This document shows positions 19,076 through 30,258 of a stretch of 43,865 nucleotides of DNA, one piece after another (the stretch's first letter is position 1; each line of letters starts with the position of its first letter). The notes beneath the pieces are model-generated. The model was given only the letters and a program-made list of their open reading frames with translations. It was not told the DNA's origin and made no database searches. Both the position numbers and the translations under genes were made by a program. This stretch comes from a virus. The stretch lies in IMG/VR virus record IMGVR_UViG_3300006622_000020, positions 1-43,865 of that record. One strand, 5' to 3'.

Positions 19076-20950
19076 CTAGGAACTGAAAGAAACCTTTTGT
19101 CGAGGCCAAACTCTGCCTGATTCTGGTCTTCTTCCTTCTGATGTTGCCTCTGATCCGCCTGCGATGTATTTACCGCTTCCCATTCTTATACCCCAAGGTA
19201 TATGTACTCTTAATGGAGGTGTTCCGTATAATTCAGATAAGTCTGCTTGACCATTTTGGTATTGATTGTCCTTAATTGAATTAACATCCGTTGAAGAATA
19301 TAACATTGTAGATGGTATATCAGCTGGGGTAGGACTATTAGAAAAGTCAATTAAATCTTCTCCAATTAAATTCTCTTTTGCATGTTTTATCATTAGTGCT
19401 TTTAATTCAGCAATAGATGGATATACTCCTCGTTGAGTATAATACCAATCTAAGAATACGACCGCACAACCTGCTGCAACTGGTCCTGCACAACTTGTTC
19501 CACTAAAGTATCCCCATTTGCCATCTGAATAATTACCTGTTGGATAACTTGTCCAAGTATATGCACCATAAGCAGCAAAGTCAATTCCTGGTCCTCTATT
19601 ACTATAATCATCCATTAATCTATTTACATCATCTTGTTGACAAGCAGCAATTGTAAATTGATTATCACCACCACCAGCTTCTTGTCTTAATGGATAAAAT
19701 GTTAAAGCATTAGAACTTACATTAGTTGTAAATTGATTTCTTTCTTCACTGTCTAAAGTATTAATTACACCGTCAGCCCCCACGCCTACAACTATTTGTG
19801 TATTAAATCTTCCGTCTTCTGGGTCAACAAACACGTGAGCATTATTACCTGCAGATTTAAAATGATATATTCCATTATAGTTATTAAACTGACCCATAAT
19901 GGTATCATAAGAAGAGGATCTTGTTTGGTCAGGAATAGAAATACACCAATGTTTAGTTAATGAACCTGGGTCTTCAATAACTCTTGGAATTAAATTCGCA
20001 TCTGTAAATGGTGTTAAATCATTTCCCCAAGCAAGGCCGGGTCGATTAATTTGAGTAAGATTTCCATCTTTATCACGTACGTTTAATGTTTGTATGTGAT
20101 CACAGCGATAAAATCTTTCATGGTCAACACCAATATAACCCCAAGCACCAGTAACTACGGTTGCATTACGAACTCCTGTCACTGGGTTAACGGGTTTGCT
20201 GATATGCCATTGTAATACTCCATAGTAACAGTTCGTAACACCGTCTGACAAATAAACCACTCTTAAAGTCGACTTTTTACCCCAACCACAATGTTTACCA
20301 CCGGCTGCACTTAATACTCCAATTGCATGATTTGAAAACCAATTTGCACTATCATTTGTTACTTGATTATTTCTTGCATCATTCAACGAACTACTAACTG
20401 TTGACCAATCCATTGGAATAAATCTTGAATTCGTACTATCAAATTCCTGGAAGTCAACGTGATTTTCATGGCCTGCATTACTTGCTGAAGGAGTACCCGC
20501 TTCAATCGCAACAATATCAACATACTCGCCTAAAAAGTTTGACTTAACGGTATCATCAAATTGATATTCAGAACCTTGAAAATATCCAAAAGGTTGAGTT
20601 CCATCAGCAGGGTCAAACTCGCTTGAAAAGAACATGTTTAATCCGGTATTATCTGCACCAGCAGTACCACCATTAGGAGCAAATTTAGTTCTGTATGTTA
20701 CAGTTCCACTTTCATATCTAGGAGTCGTTGACGGATAAGATACTTCTTCCACTCTTTTTTCTGGTAAACATTCTAAAACTTTACCACTTGCTATAATTAT
20801 ATCTGCCTCTTCTTCAGTTAACATCATTACTAACAAGCCGTCAAACAGATCTGGGTTATTGTTTAACTCCATATCTCTTGCTTCGTTTTCCAATAGGTCT
20901 GTTTCCAGAACTCCTGGCTGCATAACGATGTTGTACATTTTCTTAGACAT
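19076..20950 (-). CDS. Subtilisin-like (S8) protease-fold virion protein with Glu at the catalytic Asp site
   Basis: 624 aa. S8 landmarks appear in order: VDIVAIEAGT (canonical xDxG block, with E150 where Asp is expected), NHAIGVLSAAGG (His block, H208), FKSAGNNAHV (oxyanion Asn, N369) and FSGTSCAGPVAAG (nucleophile S486). The N-terminal about 100 residues look like an added prodomain or docking region. There is no signal peptide, as expected for a virion component. It lies between the cupredoxin fibre-like gene (3-base gap) and gp8, so it is probably tail or baseplate associated. It may cleave host surface protein or process a phage structural protein. The Asp-to-Glu change may lower or alter activity; Ser, His and Asn are retained. 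Confidence 0.8.
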   Translation of the reverse strand: MSKKMYNIVMQPGVLETDLLENEARDMELNNNPDLFDGLLVMMLTEEEADIIIASGKVLECLPEKRVEEVSYPSTTPRYESGTVTYRTKFAPNGGTAGADNTGLNMFFSSEFDPADGTQPFGYFQGSEYQFDDTVKSNFLGEYVDIVAIEAGTPSASNAGHENHVDFQEFDSTNSRFIPMDWSTVSSSLNDARNNQVTNDSANWFSNHAIGVLSAAGGKHCGWGKKSTLRVVYLSDGVTNCYYGVLQWHISKPVNPVTGVRNATVVTGAWGYIGVDHERFYRCDHIQTLNVRDKDGNLTQINRPGLAWGNDLTPFTDANLIPRVIEDPGSLTKHWCISIPDQTRSSSYDTIMGQFNNYNGIYHFKSAGNNAHVFVDPEDGRFNTQIVVGVGADGVINTLDSEERNQFTTNVSSNALTFYPLRQEAGGGDNQFTIAACQQDDVNRLMDDYSNRGPGIDFAAYGAYTWTSYPTGNYSDGKWGYFSGTSCAGPVAAGCAVVFLDWYYTQRGVYPSIAELKALMIKHAKENLIGEDLIDFSNSPTPADIPSTMLYSSTDVNSIKDNQYQNGQADLSELYGTPPLRVHIPWGIRMGSGKYIAGGSEATSEGRRPESGRVWPRQKVSFSS

Positions 20951-20953
20951 TTA

Positions 20954-22822
20954 TTAGCTCTCGAGTTTAAGTGCGTCGATTGTGACAGTCACCGTACCTG
21001 TGGATCCTGAATTGTTTTTAATTGCTACAGGAACTTCTGTTTCTGAATTATCAAGCCAACCAATAATTGCTGGTGTCATTTTAAATACTTGAGTACCAGA
21101 AGCTGTTGAAATAACTTCAGCAATAACTCCTGCACCATCAGCAGGATCAGTACCTTGTGTTCTACCTGCGTCTGCTGTTCTTGAAGCAACGTCACAATAT
21201 ATTCTTACCCAGCATTGCTTATCTACCGTAATCTTTTGTAATCCAAATGATTTGCCTAATGTTGAATATAATACATTTGCAGAAGCGCCATCTGAAATTG
21301 AAGAAGTGGTTTCTGCTTCCTGTACTCTTGATGCTCCACCACCGCCTGCTGATGGATCGGCAATAACAATATCACCAATCATTGATGAATGTGCTGTACA
21401 AATATACTTATAAGTACCAGAAATATTTCCAGGTACTTTCCAATATAATGTTCCTTCGTATTTACCTTGTGCGGCTGAACCTACTGATTTAGTACCGTCG
21501 TTTGCGTAATGAACCAAACCTGTATTATAAGCAGTCGTTGCGTCTGATCTTATTTCAAATGGATGCATTGAAGTAGCACCATTTAATTCAAATGCAACTG
21601 TTTGACCAGCTTGTACATATACTGTTGGGTTATCACCTGGCAATTGGTCCATTGTGTATTTTGAACTATCAGGACCTACAACATAATAAGTTGTTACCGC
21701 GGTTGCGGCCATGTCATGAATATCGAGATCGGCTTCGTCAACTTCTGTTAATCCGGCAAGAGTAGATGAACCACCACCGCCACTTGCAGCAGCCCATTGA
21801 TAATCAGAACCATTCCATTGTAAGAATTCGTTTGTAGCTGCGCCTGAAACATTTAAATGAGTATCAACTTTAGAATCCGCATATCTAATTGAAGATTCTA
21901 CTGAAGCAACACCTGATGTTGCTGTAATTGTTGTACCGTCTGTAATAGCAGCAACTAAATCAGCAACTGTTTCTTTCTTTGAATTACCTGAATCGTTTGC
22001 ATCAACAAATGCAATACTATCGGCTGCTTGGTCGATTACGCCGGAAGCCAAACCATTTAGATCTGTTCCGCCACCGCCACCGCCGCCACCGCTTGAAGCA
22101 ATTGTAATTGTATCAGCAGTATTATTAGCAGTTAGTGTTACGTTGGCTCCTGCGACAAATGTAACTTCAGTTGTTGCACTATCCGCTCCAATTGTAGTAC
22201 CGCCAACAGTTATTTGTGTAAATGTGTTTTGATCTGCAGGTTGTGCGATCCAAGAATAATCTGAACCATCCCAACTTAATACTTCGTTATCACTAGCACT
22301 GCTTGTATTTAAATGTCCATCAACATCGGTATTTGCGAATGATCCACCACCGCTTCCACCTGACCCACCTTCAACCCAACTATAAGAACCGTTTGCGCTC
22401 GTACCAAGAACGTAACCATCTACTTCATCGTTTAGTATATTGGCCGAATATACAAAAGTGTTTAGAGGATCAACATAATTAAGAATATCTCCAGCAGAAT
22501 TATCGGATAATAATTTATTCCAACCTCCGTGAGCATAATACATTTTACCGGTGTCATGTGCATGCCCAATAATACCATGATAGGTACTTGCATTAACATC
22601 TGTTAGTAATGCTTCAGTTGAATATAAGAATGATACTTTATGCGGTTTACCTAATAAATCCAAAGCACCGTTGGTATCAAATAAATCAATTGGATTATTT
22701 GCATTACCTAATGCTAAGTATACTTCCGTAAAGTTATCGTTTGCTTTATCAAAAGCGTTACGTAACGGATCACCAGTTCCGTCATTCGCAGATGCTCCGA
22801 TATTAATTATTTGCTTGGCCAT
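20954..22822 (-). CDS. Fibre-like virion protein with embedded cupredoxin (type-1 copper-like) domain
   Basis: 622 aa. It opens with MAKQIINIGASANDGTGD and continues LRNAFDKANDNFTEVY, a common N-terminus of T4-like marine fibre/structural proteins. Glycine-rich linkers (for example GGGGGGGGTDLNG) separate repeated modules ending WDGSDYSW or WNGSDYQW. Residues about 390-495 form a cupredoxin-like domain: PTVYVQAGQTVAFELNG, then MHPFEI with H420, then GTYKYICTAHSSMIGDIVI with C475, H478 and M481. The His, Cys-x2-His-x2-Met ligand set and spacing match type-1 blue copper proteins such as amicyanin. The C-terminal about 120 residues are a separate beta domain. The gene has its own late-promoter box. 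Copper binding is inferred from motifs only. Confidence 0.8.
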   Translation of the reverse strand: MAKQIINIGASANDGTGDPLRNAFDKANDNFTEVYLALGNANNPIDLFDTNGALDLLGKPHKVSFLYSTEALLTDVNASTYHGIIGHAHDTGKMYYAHGGWNKLLSDNSAGDILNYVDPLNTFVYSANILNDEVDGYVLGTSANGSYSWVEGGSGGSGGGSFANTDVDGHLNTSSASDNEVLSWDGSDYSWIAQPADQNTFTQITVGGTTIGADSATTEVTFVAGANVTLTANNTADTITIASSGGGGGGGGTDLNGLASGVIDQAADSIAFVDANDSGNSKKETVADLVAAITDGTTITATSGVASVESSIRYADSKVDTHLNVSGAATNEFLQWNGSDYQWAAASGGGGSSTLAGLTEVDEADLDIHDMAATAVTTYYVVGPDSSKYTMDQLPGDNPTVYVQAGQTVAFELNGATSMHPFEIRSDATTAYNTGLVHYANDGTKSVGSAAQGKYEGTLYWKVPGNISGTYKYICTAHSSMIGDIVIADPSAGGGGASRVQEAETTSSISDGASANVLYSTLGKSFGLQKITVDKQCWVRIYCDVASRTADAGRTQGTDPADGAGVIAEVISTASGTQVFKMTPAIIGWLDNSETEVPVAIKNNSGSTGTVTVTIDALKLES

Positions 22823-22864: not shown

Positions 22865-25800
22865 TTAATATGTGGTGTCGTAATCGTTCTCGAAGTATTT
22901 GTTAATTAATCTTCTCATATCAGGCGTTACAACATGACCTACACCTGATTCTCTCAGCCATACTACTTTACCATAATCACTAATTCTACTATTCGTACCA
23001 TATACGAATCCGCCTGTTAACTGAGACCCAGTATAATTAGTTGCTTGCGCAAATCTGAAAGATGAATCGTTTGCACTTAAGAACGTTGGGCTGTTAGCAA
23101 TAATGTTACTGCCTCCGCCGACAAATGGCACAGTAACGTCTTGCATACCGTTCATTTGTAATATTCTTCTTTGAGGTATTGGGTTTCTAAACTGATCGTA
23201 TCCATCATTAGGATATTCATCACCAGTTTCAAGTTCGTTAGAAGGATAATAGAATCTGCTGTTTCTATATTGATCTGTATTTGTTTGAGATATTAAACAA
23301 GCAATTACATCAACACTTAGATCTCTTATTTCAATTGCTGCTCTCAATGCAAGAGCACCACCGTTTGATTGTCCTAGAATACGAATCTTGTTTTCATCAA
23401 CGTTATTATATAGTTTCAGTTTGGCAATCATTTCTATTATCATATCAATGTCAGGACCATTGCTGATTTCCATTGAGACGTTCCACGAATTCACAAATCC
23501 TTGTATACCAATCAATATATGTCCTGGTAAATCATCTGCCCATGATTCAACCATTGCCGCACCAGTTCCACCATTACCATGTAATAATATCGCAACTGGG
23601 TAAGGACCTGTTCCTACAGTCGGCATTCCAACAGTAACTTCGTAATCATGGAATCCTTGATCCCATTGTCTTGTAATTGTTAGATCACCAGCAGAACCTT
23701 CAACTAACGTTAATCCACCAGTTCCACCAGGAGTATGATCGGCGGCAACAAATGTACTATCAGCAGTATAGTTTGTAATAGAAGCTCTTAAGTCTGTTAT
23801 GTCTGCTTGATCGAACGGAGAACCTTGACCTTGATCGTTGAACTTTCTCAAGAATCTTTGCTTTATTGATCCGCCTGCATATGCCTTGAATATAAAGTCA
23901 CCAAATAGTTTTGAACCTGCTAGGTGAACATTCTCTCTTAATAGTTTTTCATATTCTTGAATAGGCAACGTAGATTTAATTTGATACGAATACTCTTGGT
24001 AGAAATTACTATCTTGTATTCTCATTCCTGAGTCAAGGTATTCTTGGTCGTAAGTAATAACAGTATCAAACACTGTATAGACAACGTTTACCTGAGCAGT
24101 ATACCAGAACTGTTCTTTTAACGAAGGAACAACAACTTCATTCCACCTTTGTGTAATAGCATCAGCAGCAGTACCATTTGATAATTGTGTAAACAATATT
24201 CCCGTGCCTGAATTAATTGGGAATCCTTGTTTAGTCATATCATAAACTGCGAATCCATCTGAAGCAGTGCTCTGTAACCATCCTTCAACCTGAGGACTAA
24301 GAAGAGGGAAAAGAGCTGTTGGATCATTGTTTAAAACGATCTGTAAAATAATCAGAGCCATGGATGATGTTGGGCGAAGTATATCGTTAGTCGTAGATCC
24401 GTTTTGTTTCCAACCACTTAGGTGAGAATTTTGTCCTGCCCAATATCCACCAGTTTTACCTTGAGTGTCAGCAAAAACAAATCCTTCAGCTATTTTGTTT
24501 CCGTCACTATCTCTTAGCTCGCCTTTACCTTCGGCAAACTCTAGACTTGAGAAATCAACTAAGCCAGGATCATATCCAACATAACCAAATCCGGAATTAA
24601 TAATCTCTACTTCTTCTACTTTACCTACGGCAAATTCTGTTTCGGCAAGCATAATTGCGTTATCACCGAATCTTTTATAATCATCATAGTCGTTTGTAAT
24701 AATAGAAACATTAAACTCAGAAAGTGGTGAATTAACTAAACGTATATTTTCGTCTGAATTAAATCCATAATAATTAAATGGTACAACAGTTAGGTATCCT
24801 TCCGATTGGTCAATATTTTGGATCACACCAACCACTAAAGAATCAACACCTTGTATTCTATCGCCGATTGAGAAACTACCTGCATCACCAGCATCAGCAA
24901 ATAAAATAAGTTGATTTTTACGATCTAAATTTTTAACTAGTGAATCTTGTGCAAGAGCAAATACATCGTTTGTATAATCGGCCCCTGGGTTAACATTTTC
25001 AAAAGAAGCGATTCTTCCGATTGTTAAATCTTGAATTGAGAATGCTTGATTTAAAGGAGTCGTTAGATTCACAGGAGATGCCGTACCTGACATTGGAGTT
25101 GGGTCTCCGTAATCTGCGGCGTTTAATGCTATTGATAAGTAAGGAGTAATTGGATCTGTAATAACAGAAGCAACTGAAGTATCTGTTAAAGCAGAAACCT
25201 TTACATCGTCTGCACTTCCTGTATCAGCAAATTGTGGTCCAGGAGAAGATAGGTTCTTTGTGGTAAGTTGATTTTCTACTAAAGAAAGATTAATTGTAAG
25301 ACCTGATTGTGAAGCTGTTATTGTAGAAAGATCTTGCATGATCTGGCCGGCATTCATTTTAAAACCAAGAACACTTTCGTTTTGTCCAACGACCGTACCT
25401 ATATTACCGAAAGAATCTGTAAGAGTTTCTCCAATAATAAATCCTTTGTTATAACCTGTCTCTCCATTGTTTAAAATAATAGATTGGTCAGAAACAATTA
25501 ACCTTGTGTTATCAATAGTATAGCCATATCCGCCATCTTCTAACTCATATGCAATTTCTCCAGAAACATCTGTTGAAACTTTGGTGACAATTGCTGTACC
25601 TGCATAAGCATCTTTTTGTCTTACATCAAATACTTCACCAACCTTTCTTCTTGTGGCTGCAGCTGATCCTATTGGATTGTTAACTTCAAATCTTGATAGA
25701 GAACCGTTAGTTTTACCAAAGCTAACAACCTCTCCATTAATGTTTGTGATAATATCTTCATACTTTTTAAACGTACCTTGAATACCATCGAGATATATGA

Positions 25801-26383
25801 TAGGCGTTTTAACTCCATTTAAAACAAAGAAGTTAACTGATCTTACTGAGGCCTTTGCTCCTGTTACTGCACCTTCAATATTACGTGCTAATAAATCATA
25901 GTATTCATATTCTTTGCCAGATTTTGACGTGAATAAATTATTGTTTGGAAACATTTGTAAGTATGTACCTTGCTTCCATTCTGAATCAGAAATCTTTTGC
26001 ATCTTAGCAGAAGGATAGACAAGTTCAATATCAAACTCTTGATAGAAAATAGCAAAGAATAATTCAATACCTCGAGCGGTACCTTTTGCACGATATAGAT
26101 CAAGAATATTTTTAATAATAAACTTAATAAGATCGGCTTTAAGTGGAAGATCGGCAAGGAACTTTTTCTTAAAGAGTATAATCATACTCTCTAATGTGGT
26201 ATCTATATCTTTGGTTTCAAATAATCTTCGTGATTGATAGAGATGCTGATTCTCTTGAGATTCAGACCACTTATAATAGTCCTCTACTAATTGAACAAGC
26301 TCAGGTCCGTCTTCCCTATATATTGCTGGGAATTGGCGCTTAACAAAAAGCGATATGTTTTTTTCTATTTCACCCTGAGGCAT
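22865..26383 (-). CDS. gp7: gp7-like baseplate wedge protein fused to a C-terminal alpha/beta-hydrolase
   Basis: 1172 aa. The N-terminus (FVKRQFPAIYREDGPELVQL, ILDLYRAKGTARGIELFF, FYQEFDIELVYPSAKM) matches the pattern near the C-terminal region of T4 gp7 (YDFYSTKGIEASYKFLFK), and the gene lies between gp6 and gp8 as in T4. The wedge part ends near residue 850 (SKLFGDFIFKAYAGG). After a Gly/Thr-rich linker, residues about 895-1165 form an alpha/beta-hydrolase: VAILLHGNGGTG (oxyanion HG, H935), RILGQSNGGALALR (nucleophile elbow, S1006), MNGMQDVTVPFVGG (acid D1082) and ESGVGHVVTPD (H1150). Motifs and spacing resemble polyhydroxybutyrate-depolymerase/feruloyl-esterase-like esterases (COG3509-type). 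T4 gp7 has no such domain. Substrate unknown; a host surface ester or polymer is a guess. Confidence 0.8.
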   Translation of the reverse strand: MPQGEIEKNISLFVKRQFPAIYREDGPELVQLVEDYYKWSESQENQHLYQSRRLFETKDIDTTLESMIILFKKKFLADLPLKADLIKFIIKNILDLYRAKGTARGIELFFAIFYQEFDIELVYPSAKMQKISDSEWKQGTYLQMFPNNNLFTSKSGKEYEYYDLLARNIEGAVTGAKASVRSVNFFVLNGVKTPIIYLDGIQGTFKKYEDIITNINGEVVSFGKTNGSLSRFEVNNPIGSAAATRRKVGEVFDVRQKDAYAGTAIVTKVSTDVSGEIAYELEDGGYGYTIDNTRLIVSDQSIILNNGETGYNKGFIIGETLTDSFGNIGTVVGQNESVLGFKMNAGQIMQDLSTITASQSGLTINLSLVENQLTTKNLSSPGPQFADTGSADDVKVSALTDTSVASVITDPITPYLSIALNAADYGDPTPMSGTASPVNLTTPLNQAFSIQDLTIGRIASFENVNPGADYTNDVFALAQDSLVKNLDRKNQLILFADAGDAGSFSIGDRIQGVDSLVVGVIQNIDQSEGYLTVVPFNYYGFNSDENIRLVNSPLSEFNVSIITNDYDDYKRFGDNAIMLAETEFAVGKVEEVEIINSGFGYVGYDPGLVDFSSLEFAEGKGELRDSDGNKIAEGFVFADTQGKTGGYWAGQNSHLSGWKQNGSTTNDILRPTSSMALIILQIVLNNDPTALFPLLSPQVEGWLQSTASDGFAVYDMTKQGFPINSGTGILFTQLSNGTAADAITQRWNEVVVPSLKEQFWYTAQVNVVYTVFDTVITYDQEYLDSGMRIQDSNFYQEYSYQIKSTLPIQEYEKLLRENVHLAGSKLFGDFIFKAYAGGSIKQRFLRKFNDQGQGSPFDQADITDLRASITNYTADSTFVAADHTPGGTGGLTLVEGSAGDLTITRQWDQGFHDYEVTVGMPTVGTGPYPVAILLHGNGGTGAAMVESWADDLPGHILIGIQGFVNSWNVSMEISNGPDIDMIIEMIAKLKLYNNVDENKIRILGQSNGGALALRAAIEIRDLSVDVIACLISQTNTDQYRNSRFYYPSNELETGDEYPNDGYDQFRNPIPQRRILQMNGMQDVTVPFVGGGSNIIANSPTFLSANDSSFRFAQATNYTGSQLTGGFVYGTNSRISDYGKVVWLRESGVGHVVTPDMRRLINKYFENDYDTTY

Positions 26384-28695: not shown

Positions 28696-30258
28696 TTATA
28701 ATATTTCTCTTAAATCTAAATGAATGAAATCATCGTATTCTTTAACGTATTTAAATCCTGTTTTAAATGCATCTTCTAAAAACTTTGGAACGTCAGCCAT
28801 ATCCTTTTTAATATCAACTACCATTCCACTTAAATGGGAATTGTCTTCTGCCCATTCTTGTTTTGTATTATAGGCTTTACTTACCCAACCATTTGTTATG
28901 ATAAGTTTACTGCCCGTTAATAACTTTAATCTTTTAAGATATACTTTAACATCAAGATCTACTCTTGTATATCCATATATTCCAACCCCTTCCTTTGCAT
29001 CAAAGTGGTTTATACTTCCACTTGGTCCGACACCTATATCTGCATCGTTACCAGAAAATACATTACCACACCTTGGCAGATCTCTATAATCAGCAGCAGT
29101 AATAGGGGCGATGTTTTTTGGTGGCTTACCAGTGTTGGTTATTGCTTCTCCACCATCCAAAGTCCATCTGCCTTCTAATCTATTTATTACCTCTTTCCTA
29201 GTTGTTGGAGAATACCGTATAGCTCCTGATTTGATGGCCGAAGATTCGTTTATGTTTGAAATCGTTTTAAGCCTGTTTACGATGGTTGTATATCGGTTGG
29301 TATAATCGTTCAATGGTTTGTTAATGTCCCTTATTAACGCTTCTACATTTGCTGCAAGTGCACAAACACGTGCTATAAGGAATTGAATCTCTTCAATACC
29401 AGGACTCTCAAATAGACTTCTTGCGTAATCAATCAACCCAGAAACTTTATCTTTAATGCCTTTCTTATTTTCTTCAGTAAAGAATGCGCAAGTTTGTTCT
29501 CTAACTGTCATAATACCTTTTACAACTTTGGCATCTACGAATGTATCAAATCCTTCTGTAATAGCAGCAGGATCAAAGTTATCAATCATGTCTTGTACTT
29601 CTTTAAAGACTTCATCAATAACAGCTTTTACTTTTTCCTTAATTTCTTTAATCAGTTTTTCAATGACTGCTTGAACGGTAAGATCTTTAATTCCATCATA
29701 CCCTCTACTGATCTTTCCAGCAATTGCTATTGCATCTGCGATCAGTCCTTCTACAACTCCAATTAAATCAAAGAATGCATCAATAGAAGCAAAGATAGAA
29801 TCAAACCTATCGCAAAATCCACCTAATAAACTTGTACTAAAATCGTTCTTATAATAGGAATCTAAATTCCTTGCCAATCTTTGGTAATCATTTTCATTTA
29901 ATATACCTTGAGGAGTATAATTATATTGCTGAATAAAATCAGCAGTTTCAAGTTGAGAAATATTACCTCGTTCCCATCTACCACTTAAGTCAGGATAATC
30001 ACCCAAGTTTCCAATTTGTTGTCGAAGCAATCCATTTAAATAATTACTTGATAAATTTAAATCATCACCATATAATTTTATTGCCTTCGTTAATGGATTT
30101 GTTTCAGCATCATTCGCAATACTTTCTGCAACTTGTTGAGTTACTGCGTCAATTTGAGAAAGAGTATATCTTCCTTTTAGATCTGTAACATTTACAGGAG
30201 ATAAAGATAACTTATTTAAAGTAATCTGATCATTAGGATCTGGACATACGCCTGCCAT
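28696..30258 (-). CDS. Baseplate-associated protein with C-terminal M15-type peptidoglycan peptidase domain
   Basis: 520 aa. Residues about 150-300 are helical and Lys/Glu/Ile-rich (for example VIEKLIKEIKEKVKAVIDEV), probably a coiled-coil or structural region. The C-terminal about 110 residues fit metallopeptidase family M15: SKLIITNGWVS, then DNSHLSGMVVDIKK with zinc ligands H475 and D482 (H-x6-D), then YDDFIHLDL with D510 as likely catalytic acid and H513 as the third ligand. M15 enzymes cut D-Ala- or L-Ala-containing peptidoglycan peptides. The gene lies between gp5 and gp25, and gp5 here has no lysozyme domain. This protein is therefore the likely wall-degrading element of the tail tip, although virion location is an inference. 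Confidence 0.75.
   Translation of the reverse strand: MAGVCPDPNDQITLNKLSLSPVNVTDLKGRYTLSQIDAVTQQVAESIANDAETNPLTKAIKLYGDDLNLSSNYLNGLLRQQIGNLGDYPDLSGRWERGNISQLETADFIQQYNYTPQGILNENDYQRLARNLDSYYKNDFSTSLLGGFCDRFDSIFASIDAFFDLIGVVEGLIADAIAIAGKISRGYDGIKDLTVQAVIEKLIKEIKEKVKAVIDEVFKEVQDMIDNFDPAAITEGFDTFVDAKVVKGIMTVREQTCAFFTEENKKGIKDKVSGLIDYARSLFESPGIEEIQFLIARVCALAANVEALIRDINKPLNDYTNRYTTIVNRLKTISNINESSAIKSGAIRYSPTTRKEVINRLEGRWTLDGGEAITNTGKPPKNIAPITAADYRDLPRCGNVFSGNDADIGVGPSGSINHFDAKEGVGIYGYTRVDLDVKVYLKRLKLLTGSKLIITNGWVSKAYNTKQEWAEDNSHLSGMVVDIKKDMADVPKFLEDAFKTGFKYVKEYDDFIHLDLREIL

Follow-up and report, generated by a model that had tools for sequence, protein, structure and literature searches.

Plastocyanin, amicyanin and rusticyanin share the cupredoxin fold and a ligand set of one His plus Cys/His/Met. 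In amicyanin and plastocyanin, the first ligand His is followed by Asn. On the side of the viruses, the metal known from phage fibres is mostly iron (T4 gp37, HxH motifs). The use of iron in phage tail fibres for receptor docking, the "Ferrojan horse", is an established hypothesis (PMC11705849). We found no report of a cupredoxin in phage virions in the open-licence literature, and absence there is not proof. Here we describe a phage domain which resembles plastocyanin, amicyanin and rusticyanin in its modelled fold and its ligands and has significant profile similarity to them. Unlike blue copper proteins, it is part of a large virion protein whose N-terminus resembles a baseplate anchor. The type of domain is not new; what appears to be new is that it sits in virion baseplates and how widely it occurs.

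The domain is encoded in the 43.9 kb viral record IMGVR_UViG_3300006622_000020, and the window analysed here is this whole stretch of 43,865 nt. The protein, P0001, gave a significant family match to phrog_677, "baseplate wedge tail fiber protein connector" (E 1.3e-43, two stretches, the best at aa 166-489), and the genes flanking it code for T4-like baseplate wedge and hub proteins. About 40 N-terminal residues of P0001 resemble T4 gp10. The Pfam family PF07880 (T4_gp9_10_N) matched 38 residues here with E 1.1e-4 and 22.7 bits, against a gathering cut-off of 25, and aa 2-44 of T4 gp10 matched with E 0.0013. Only this segment matched the baseplate wedge proteins gp10/gp9 of T4, whereas the rest of P0001 did not. 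Judging from these similarities, P0001 is a baseplate-to-tail-fibre protein of a T4-like marine phage. In the preliminary description it was called a virion fibre-like protein. This was right in so far as it appears to be a fibre/baseplate virion protein, and the phrog_677 match together with the T4 gp10-like N-terminus refines the assignment to a probable baseplate-wedge/tail-fibre connector. A stand-alone plastocyanin, the small exported product of a petE auxiliary metabolic gene, was ruled out by the length of P0001, its baseplate-anchor-like N-terminus and the baseplate gene cluster around it.

The C-terminal module of P0001 is common to other cyanophage fibre proteins, with about 36-46% identity in tblastn. 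Its pLDDT in the AlphaFold model of the full-length protein is mostly 73-88, with weaker blocks of 60-67 and at the C-terminus. This model has a pTM of 0.29 and its N-terminal half is unreliable. The gp6 homologue of the window phage is nearest to that of alphaproteobacterial (Sinorhizobium) T4-like phages (39%) and not to that of cyanophages. Therefore, the host of the window phage is probably not a cyanobacterium.

Table. P0001 and its parts in the window.
Feature	Residues	Position	Strand	Basis
P0001 ORF, baseplate-wedge/tail-fibre-connector-type virion protein	622 aa	20954..22822	(-)	ORF listing and translation; phrog_677
N-terminal baseplate-anchor segment	aa 1-40	22703..22822	(-)	PF07880 and T4 gp10 similarity
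Cupredoxin domain, 117 residues	aa 374-490	21353..21703	(-)	AlphaFold2; Foldseek and VIA-align; PDB profile matches
C-terminal beta-rich module	aa 498-622	20957..21331	(-)	tblastn; phrog_15343; full-length model pLDDT
Predicted ligand codon	His420	21563..21565	(-)	invariant in full-length relatives
Predicted ligand codon	Cys475	21398..21400	(-)	only invariant Cys of P0001
Predicted ligand codon	His478	21389..21391	(-)	invariant in full-length relatives
Predicted ligand codon, axial ligand	Met481	21380..21382	(-)	invariant in full-length relatives

We modelled the cupredoxin domain with AlphaFold2 and obtained a confident beta-sandwich (pLDDT 90.6, pTM 0.84; model residue k is P0001 residue 365+k). 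The 109-domain alignment behind this model and behind the larger profile used below was filtered for the four ligands. In the Foldseek search of the PDB, the best match was rusticyanin (E 9e-6) and all 50 matches listed were copper proteins. VIA-align gave CuNiR with a Z of 11.8 and an rmsd of 3.1 over 117, and the matches listed were cupredoxin-fold proteins. SufI, which has the cupredoxin fold without copper, was among the fold matches. The viral models that resembled the domain in the fold search were those of cyanophage baseplate connectors, tail fibres and related proteins.

When 18 close relatives were combined into a profile, it reached rusticyanin and other blue copper proteins among PDB sequences at E 0.003. 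With the 109-domain profile we obtained 52 PDB sequences at E<=0.01, all of them blue copper proteins (plastocyanin, amicyanin, rusticyanin, pseudoazurin, auracyanin), copper nitrite reductases or a CuA/amicyanin chimera. The phage His, Cys, His and Met coincide with the copper ligands in the plastocyanin alignments listed. Overall, the best fold and profile matches were rusticyanin, plastocyanin, amicyanin, CuNiR and laccase. By the fold of its model, the segment is a true cupredoxin domain, a Greek-key beta-sandwich. A beta-sandwich had been placed at 21335-21656 (aa ~390-495). It is found there, and the modelled domain covers slightly more than was stated.

The established family models gave lower scores for the P0001 domain. 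Pfam PF00127 (Copper-bind) gave 18.9-19.1 bits (E 0.0018), below the gathering cut-off of 21.2, and TIGR02657 (amicyanin) gave 21.2 bits, below the equivalog cut-off of 110.2. In this respect the domain differs from the blue copper proteins, and its copper and electron transfer are putative. Among the 109 relatives, 55 matched PF00127 at E<=0.1 (best 6.4e-8), and the best TIGR02657 match among the domain relatives had E 2e-8. We also observed that 23/109 domains matched Pfam PF25489 (At5g54830-like domain; best E 4.5e-7), which suggests a wider HP...YYC..H..M cupredoxin group reaching plants.

The putative ligands H420, C475, H478 and M481 lie in two motifs, MHPFEI, which begins at aa 419, and YICTAHSSMIG, which begins at aa 473. 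Both motifs and all four positions had been numbered correctly in the preliminary description. In the AlphaFold2 domain model, H420 stands directly before strand 422-425 and C475 is the end of strand 469-475, while H478 and M481 are within the loop 476-481, which is followed by the last strand. As modelled, this placement is the type-1 layout, with the canonical order and strand/loop positions. The ligand arrangement had been equated with that of amicyanin-type sites. The spacing C-x2-H-x2-M is indeed that of the amicyanin ligand loop, and it is nearly fixed (C-to-H 3 in 195/195 relatives, H-to-M 3 in 191/195). However, the residue after the first His is a near-invariant Pro in the phage domain and not Asn as in plastocyanin and amicyanin, and the amicyanin model falls far short of its cut-off. 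With this near-invariant His-Pro, the Cys sulphur would lose one of its backbone hydrogen bonds, and the spectrum and the potential may therefore differ from those of classical blue sites. The other two cysteines considered, C537 and C543, are not conserved among the 29 full-length relatives. Since P0001 has only one conserved Cys, there is no conserved disulfide, and a disulfide role for C475 was ruled out.

Loss of the ligands in close homologues would have refuted the proposed copper site. None of the four varies among 29 full-length relatives with 44-90% identity. For a wider count, IMG/VR relatives were gathered by patterns mostly outside the ligands (a few include one: MIGDIVI, TSMHPFEI) and isolate-phage relatives by tblastn. 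We counted copies that reach across the C-terminal strand, grouped into clusters at 80% identity, and excluded the ligand-filtered 109-domain alignment as well as the pattern sets selected for three ligands (C, H, M). All four ligands were kept in 73 of the 78 clusters, and since profile searches favour motif-keeping copies this retention may be somewhat overstated. HCHM was kept in 21/21 isolate clusters and in 23/23 and 29/34 IMG/VR clusters. Of the five remaining clusters, two are sister domains without the ligands, one reads HCHQ, another HCHS, and in the last the match stops short of the Met. With clustering at 60%, H, C, H and M reached a conservation of 0.94-0.97, and so did three neighbours, a Pro following H420, a Tyr preceding C475 and a Gly following M481; the median over columns was 0.40. 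The ligands and these neighbours are the most conserved columns among relatives not filtered for ligands. The H-to-C spacing ranges from 36 to 60 in the 195 relatives, and the rest of the domain diverges to about 25% identity while the ligands and the loop spacing stay. The His and Cys codons are mixed among the relatives; therefore, selection acts on the protein. Stretches similar to CTxHSxM are present in other marine phage structural proteins, as the preliminary description had stated.

Where ligands are lost, they are lost together. Two multi-copy fibre proteins (L387 and L394) each have one copy without the Cys and a His, with intact copies beside it. In the L387 copy, at aa 551, the first His is gone as well; the ligand-poor copy of L394 is at aa 1294. 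Conservation, fixed spacing and joint loss together ruled out a chance motif. A ligand-less cupredoxin-like sister domain is found at aa ~560-715 of the protein encoded downstream of cyanophage gp9 (L112, L115, L101 and others). Another residue stands in place of its first ligand His, and most matches stop ahead of the C-terminal loop, while the adjoining gp9 keeps all four ligands. The sister domain shows that a baseplate protein can use the fold without metal, and it represents a natural apo control.

We found 318 INPHARED records matching the window domain and 318 matching the domain of cyanophage S-SZBM1, nearly all of them cyanophages. The domain is typically positioned at the C-terminus of gp9 in cyanophages. 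It is also present in T7-like Prochlorococcus phages and one actinobacterial phage, and in internal and tandem positions of fibres. Cyanophage gp9 (phrog_677) has the cupredoxin domain and the baseplate context in common with P0001. It differs in that its domain is C-terminal and has ~105-110 aa, whereas that of P0001 is internal, longer (H-to-C spacing of 55 residues) and followed by another C-terminal module. One of the proteins carrying the domain is S-SZBM1_206 (gene L095). SSZBM1_206 was detected with 9 peptides and 24.9% coverage by mass spectrometry of CsCl-purified particles (PMC9146016, Table 1). Therefore, a protein of the P0001 kind is in the virion of an isolated phage.

Related domains also occur in cells. 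A search of genome contigs with one domain alignment gave no match, and a ligand-motif pattern then gave many cellular homologues. This set was selected for the ligands and was left out of the retention counts. With that selection, the homologues with four ligands are exported proteins and lipoproteins of marine Flavobacteria, SAR86, archaea and others, with profile E down to 4e-37. Examples are L208, L255, L216, L236, L312 and L233, some with repeat domains; L312 and L208 are lipoproteins and L236 is a Lipoprotein_15 protein. Three of the cellular homologues were scanned with PF00127 and were below or without a match. The cellular domains belong to the same family as the phage domain and have four ligands, but they are cellular and exported.

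In our judgement, copper binding by the domain is likely. As for its role, we lean towards a copper-locked structural or host-contact module in the baseplate connector, with an intact type-1 site. The domain would fold in the host cytoplasm, where copper is scarce. Since phage proteins fold there, copper would be loaded at or after lysis. The copper ion would lock the ligand loop and the beta-sandwich of the domain exposed on the baseplate fibre and so stabilise it, and the locked domain would present a defined surface to the next fibre part or to the host envelope. Electron transfer would be chemically possible and not required. Cupredoxins do not normally gain copper in the cytoplasm, where phage proteins fold, and this counts against the copper-locked module. 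Cytoplasmic assembly speaks instead for an Ig-like spacer, metal-free or with a metal other than copper (e.g. zinc), in which the residues are kept for folding. Copper-less cupredoxin folds such as SufI exist, and the sister domain next to cyanophage gp9 has no ligands. Still, we consider such a spacer unlikely: what is kept in the otherwise diverged domain is exactly the four type-1 ligands with their loop spacing, including the single invariant Cys, and the ligands are lost jointly.

Redox sensing and copper-based receptor use are both less likely than the copper-locked module. The ligand set, axial Met included, is the one nature uses for electron transfer. The site could exchange electrons with the host surface or sense the redox state of the cell and help to trigger adsorption or a baseplate change, which in cyanophages could underlie light-dependent adsorption. 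We regard this role as quite improbable, since no partner or redox chain is known and the domain also occurs in non-cyanophages (the window phage and the actinobacterial phage) and in internal and tandem fibre positions. Even more doubtful is a copper counterpart of the Ferrojan horse, in which a host protein for copper uptake, or a copper protein of the host surface, would recognise the copper on the fibre and so be the receptor. Its precedent is the iron-based docking hypothesis (PMC11705849), and homologous domains are present in the exported proteins and lipoproteins of marine bacteria. However, no host receptor is known, the hosts differ widely, and the domain is found in the baseplate connector no less often than at distal fibre tips. 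The phage domain is like the HxH motifs in having a metal site, here a predicted one, on a virion fibre in a marine setting; it differs in metal, fold and ligands, and has one site per domain instead of sites along the trimer axis. It would be a long shot to propose that the baseplate and fibres of marine T4-like phages, and of cyanophages in particular, bear many type-1 coppers whose redox state or recognition by the host surface gates adsorption, which for cyanophages might explain a dependence of adsorption on light.

Since hundreds of related phages keep all four ligands, the infection machinery of many ocean phages may carry copper. If true, a conserved blue-copper-type site on the baseplates of phages that rank among the commonest marine virus groups would extend virion chemistry to copper. 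Metal-based host recognition could then be tested concretely, and the site would be a candidate behind light- or redox-dependent adsorption of cyanophages. Copper-binding matches in viral genomes should be read with caution, as they may belong to fibre domains rather than to plastocyanin auxiliary genes.

A second cupredoxin copy was sought in the neighbouring genes of the window and none was found there; in several relatives, the next gene of the cluster encodes a further copy. The adjoining gene of the window (22865-26383, (-)) codes for a 1172-aa baseplate-wedge-type protein with a C-terminal alpha/beta-hydrolase-like domain at aa ~887-1167 (phrog_2576, E 6.5e-59; weak esterase/lipase matches). 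By these similarities it may be a virion esterase that acts on polymers of the host surface. The next gene (19076-20950, (-)) codes for a tail-fibre-type protein with a subtilisin-like S8 domain (PF00082, E 6e-10; phrog_15006, E 2e-58). The 520-aa baseplate-cluster protein encoded at 28696-30258 (-) has a C-terminal peptidase/endolysin-like match (phrog_25247, phrog_894).
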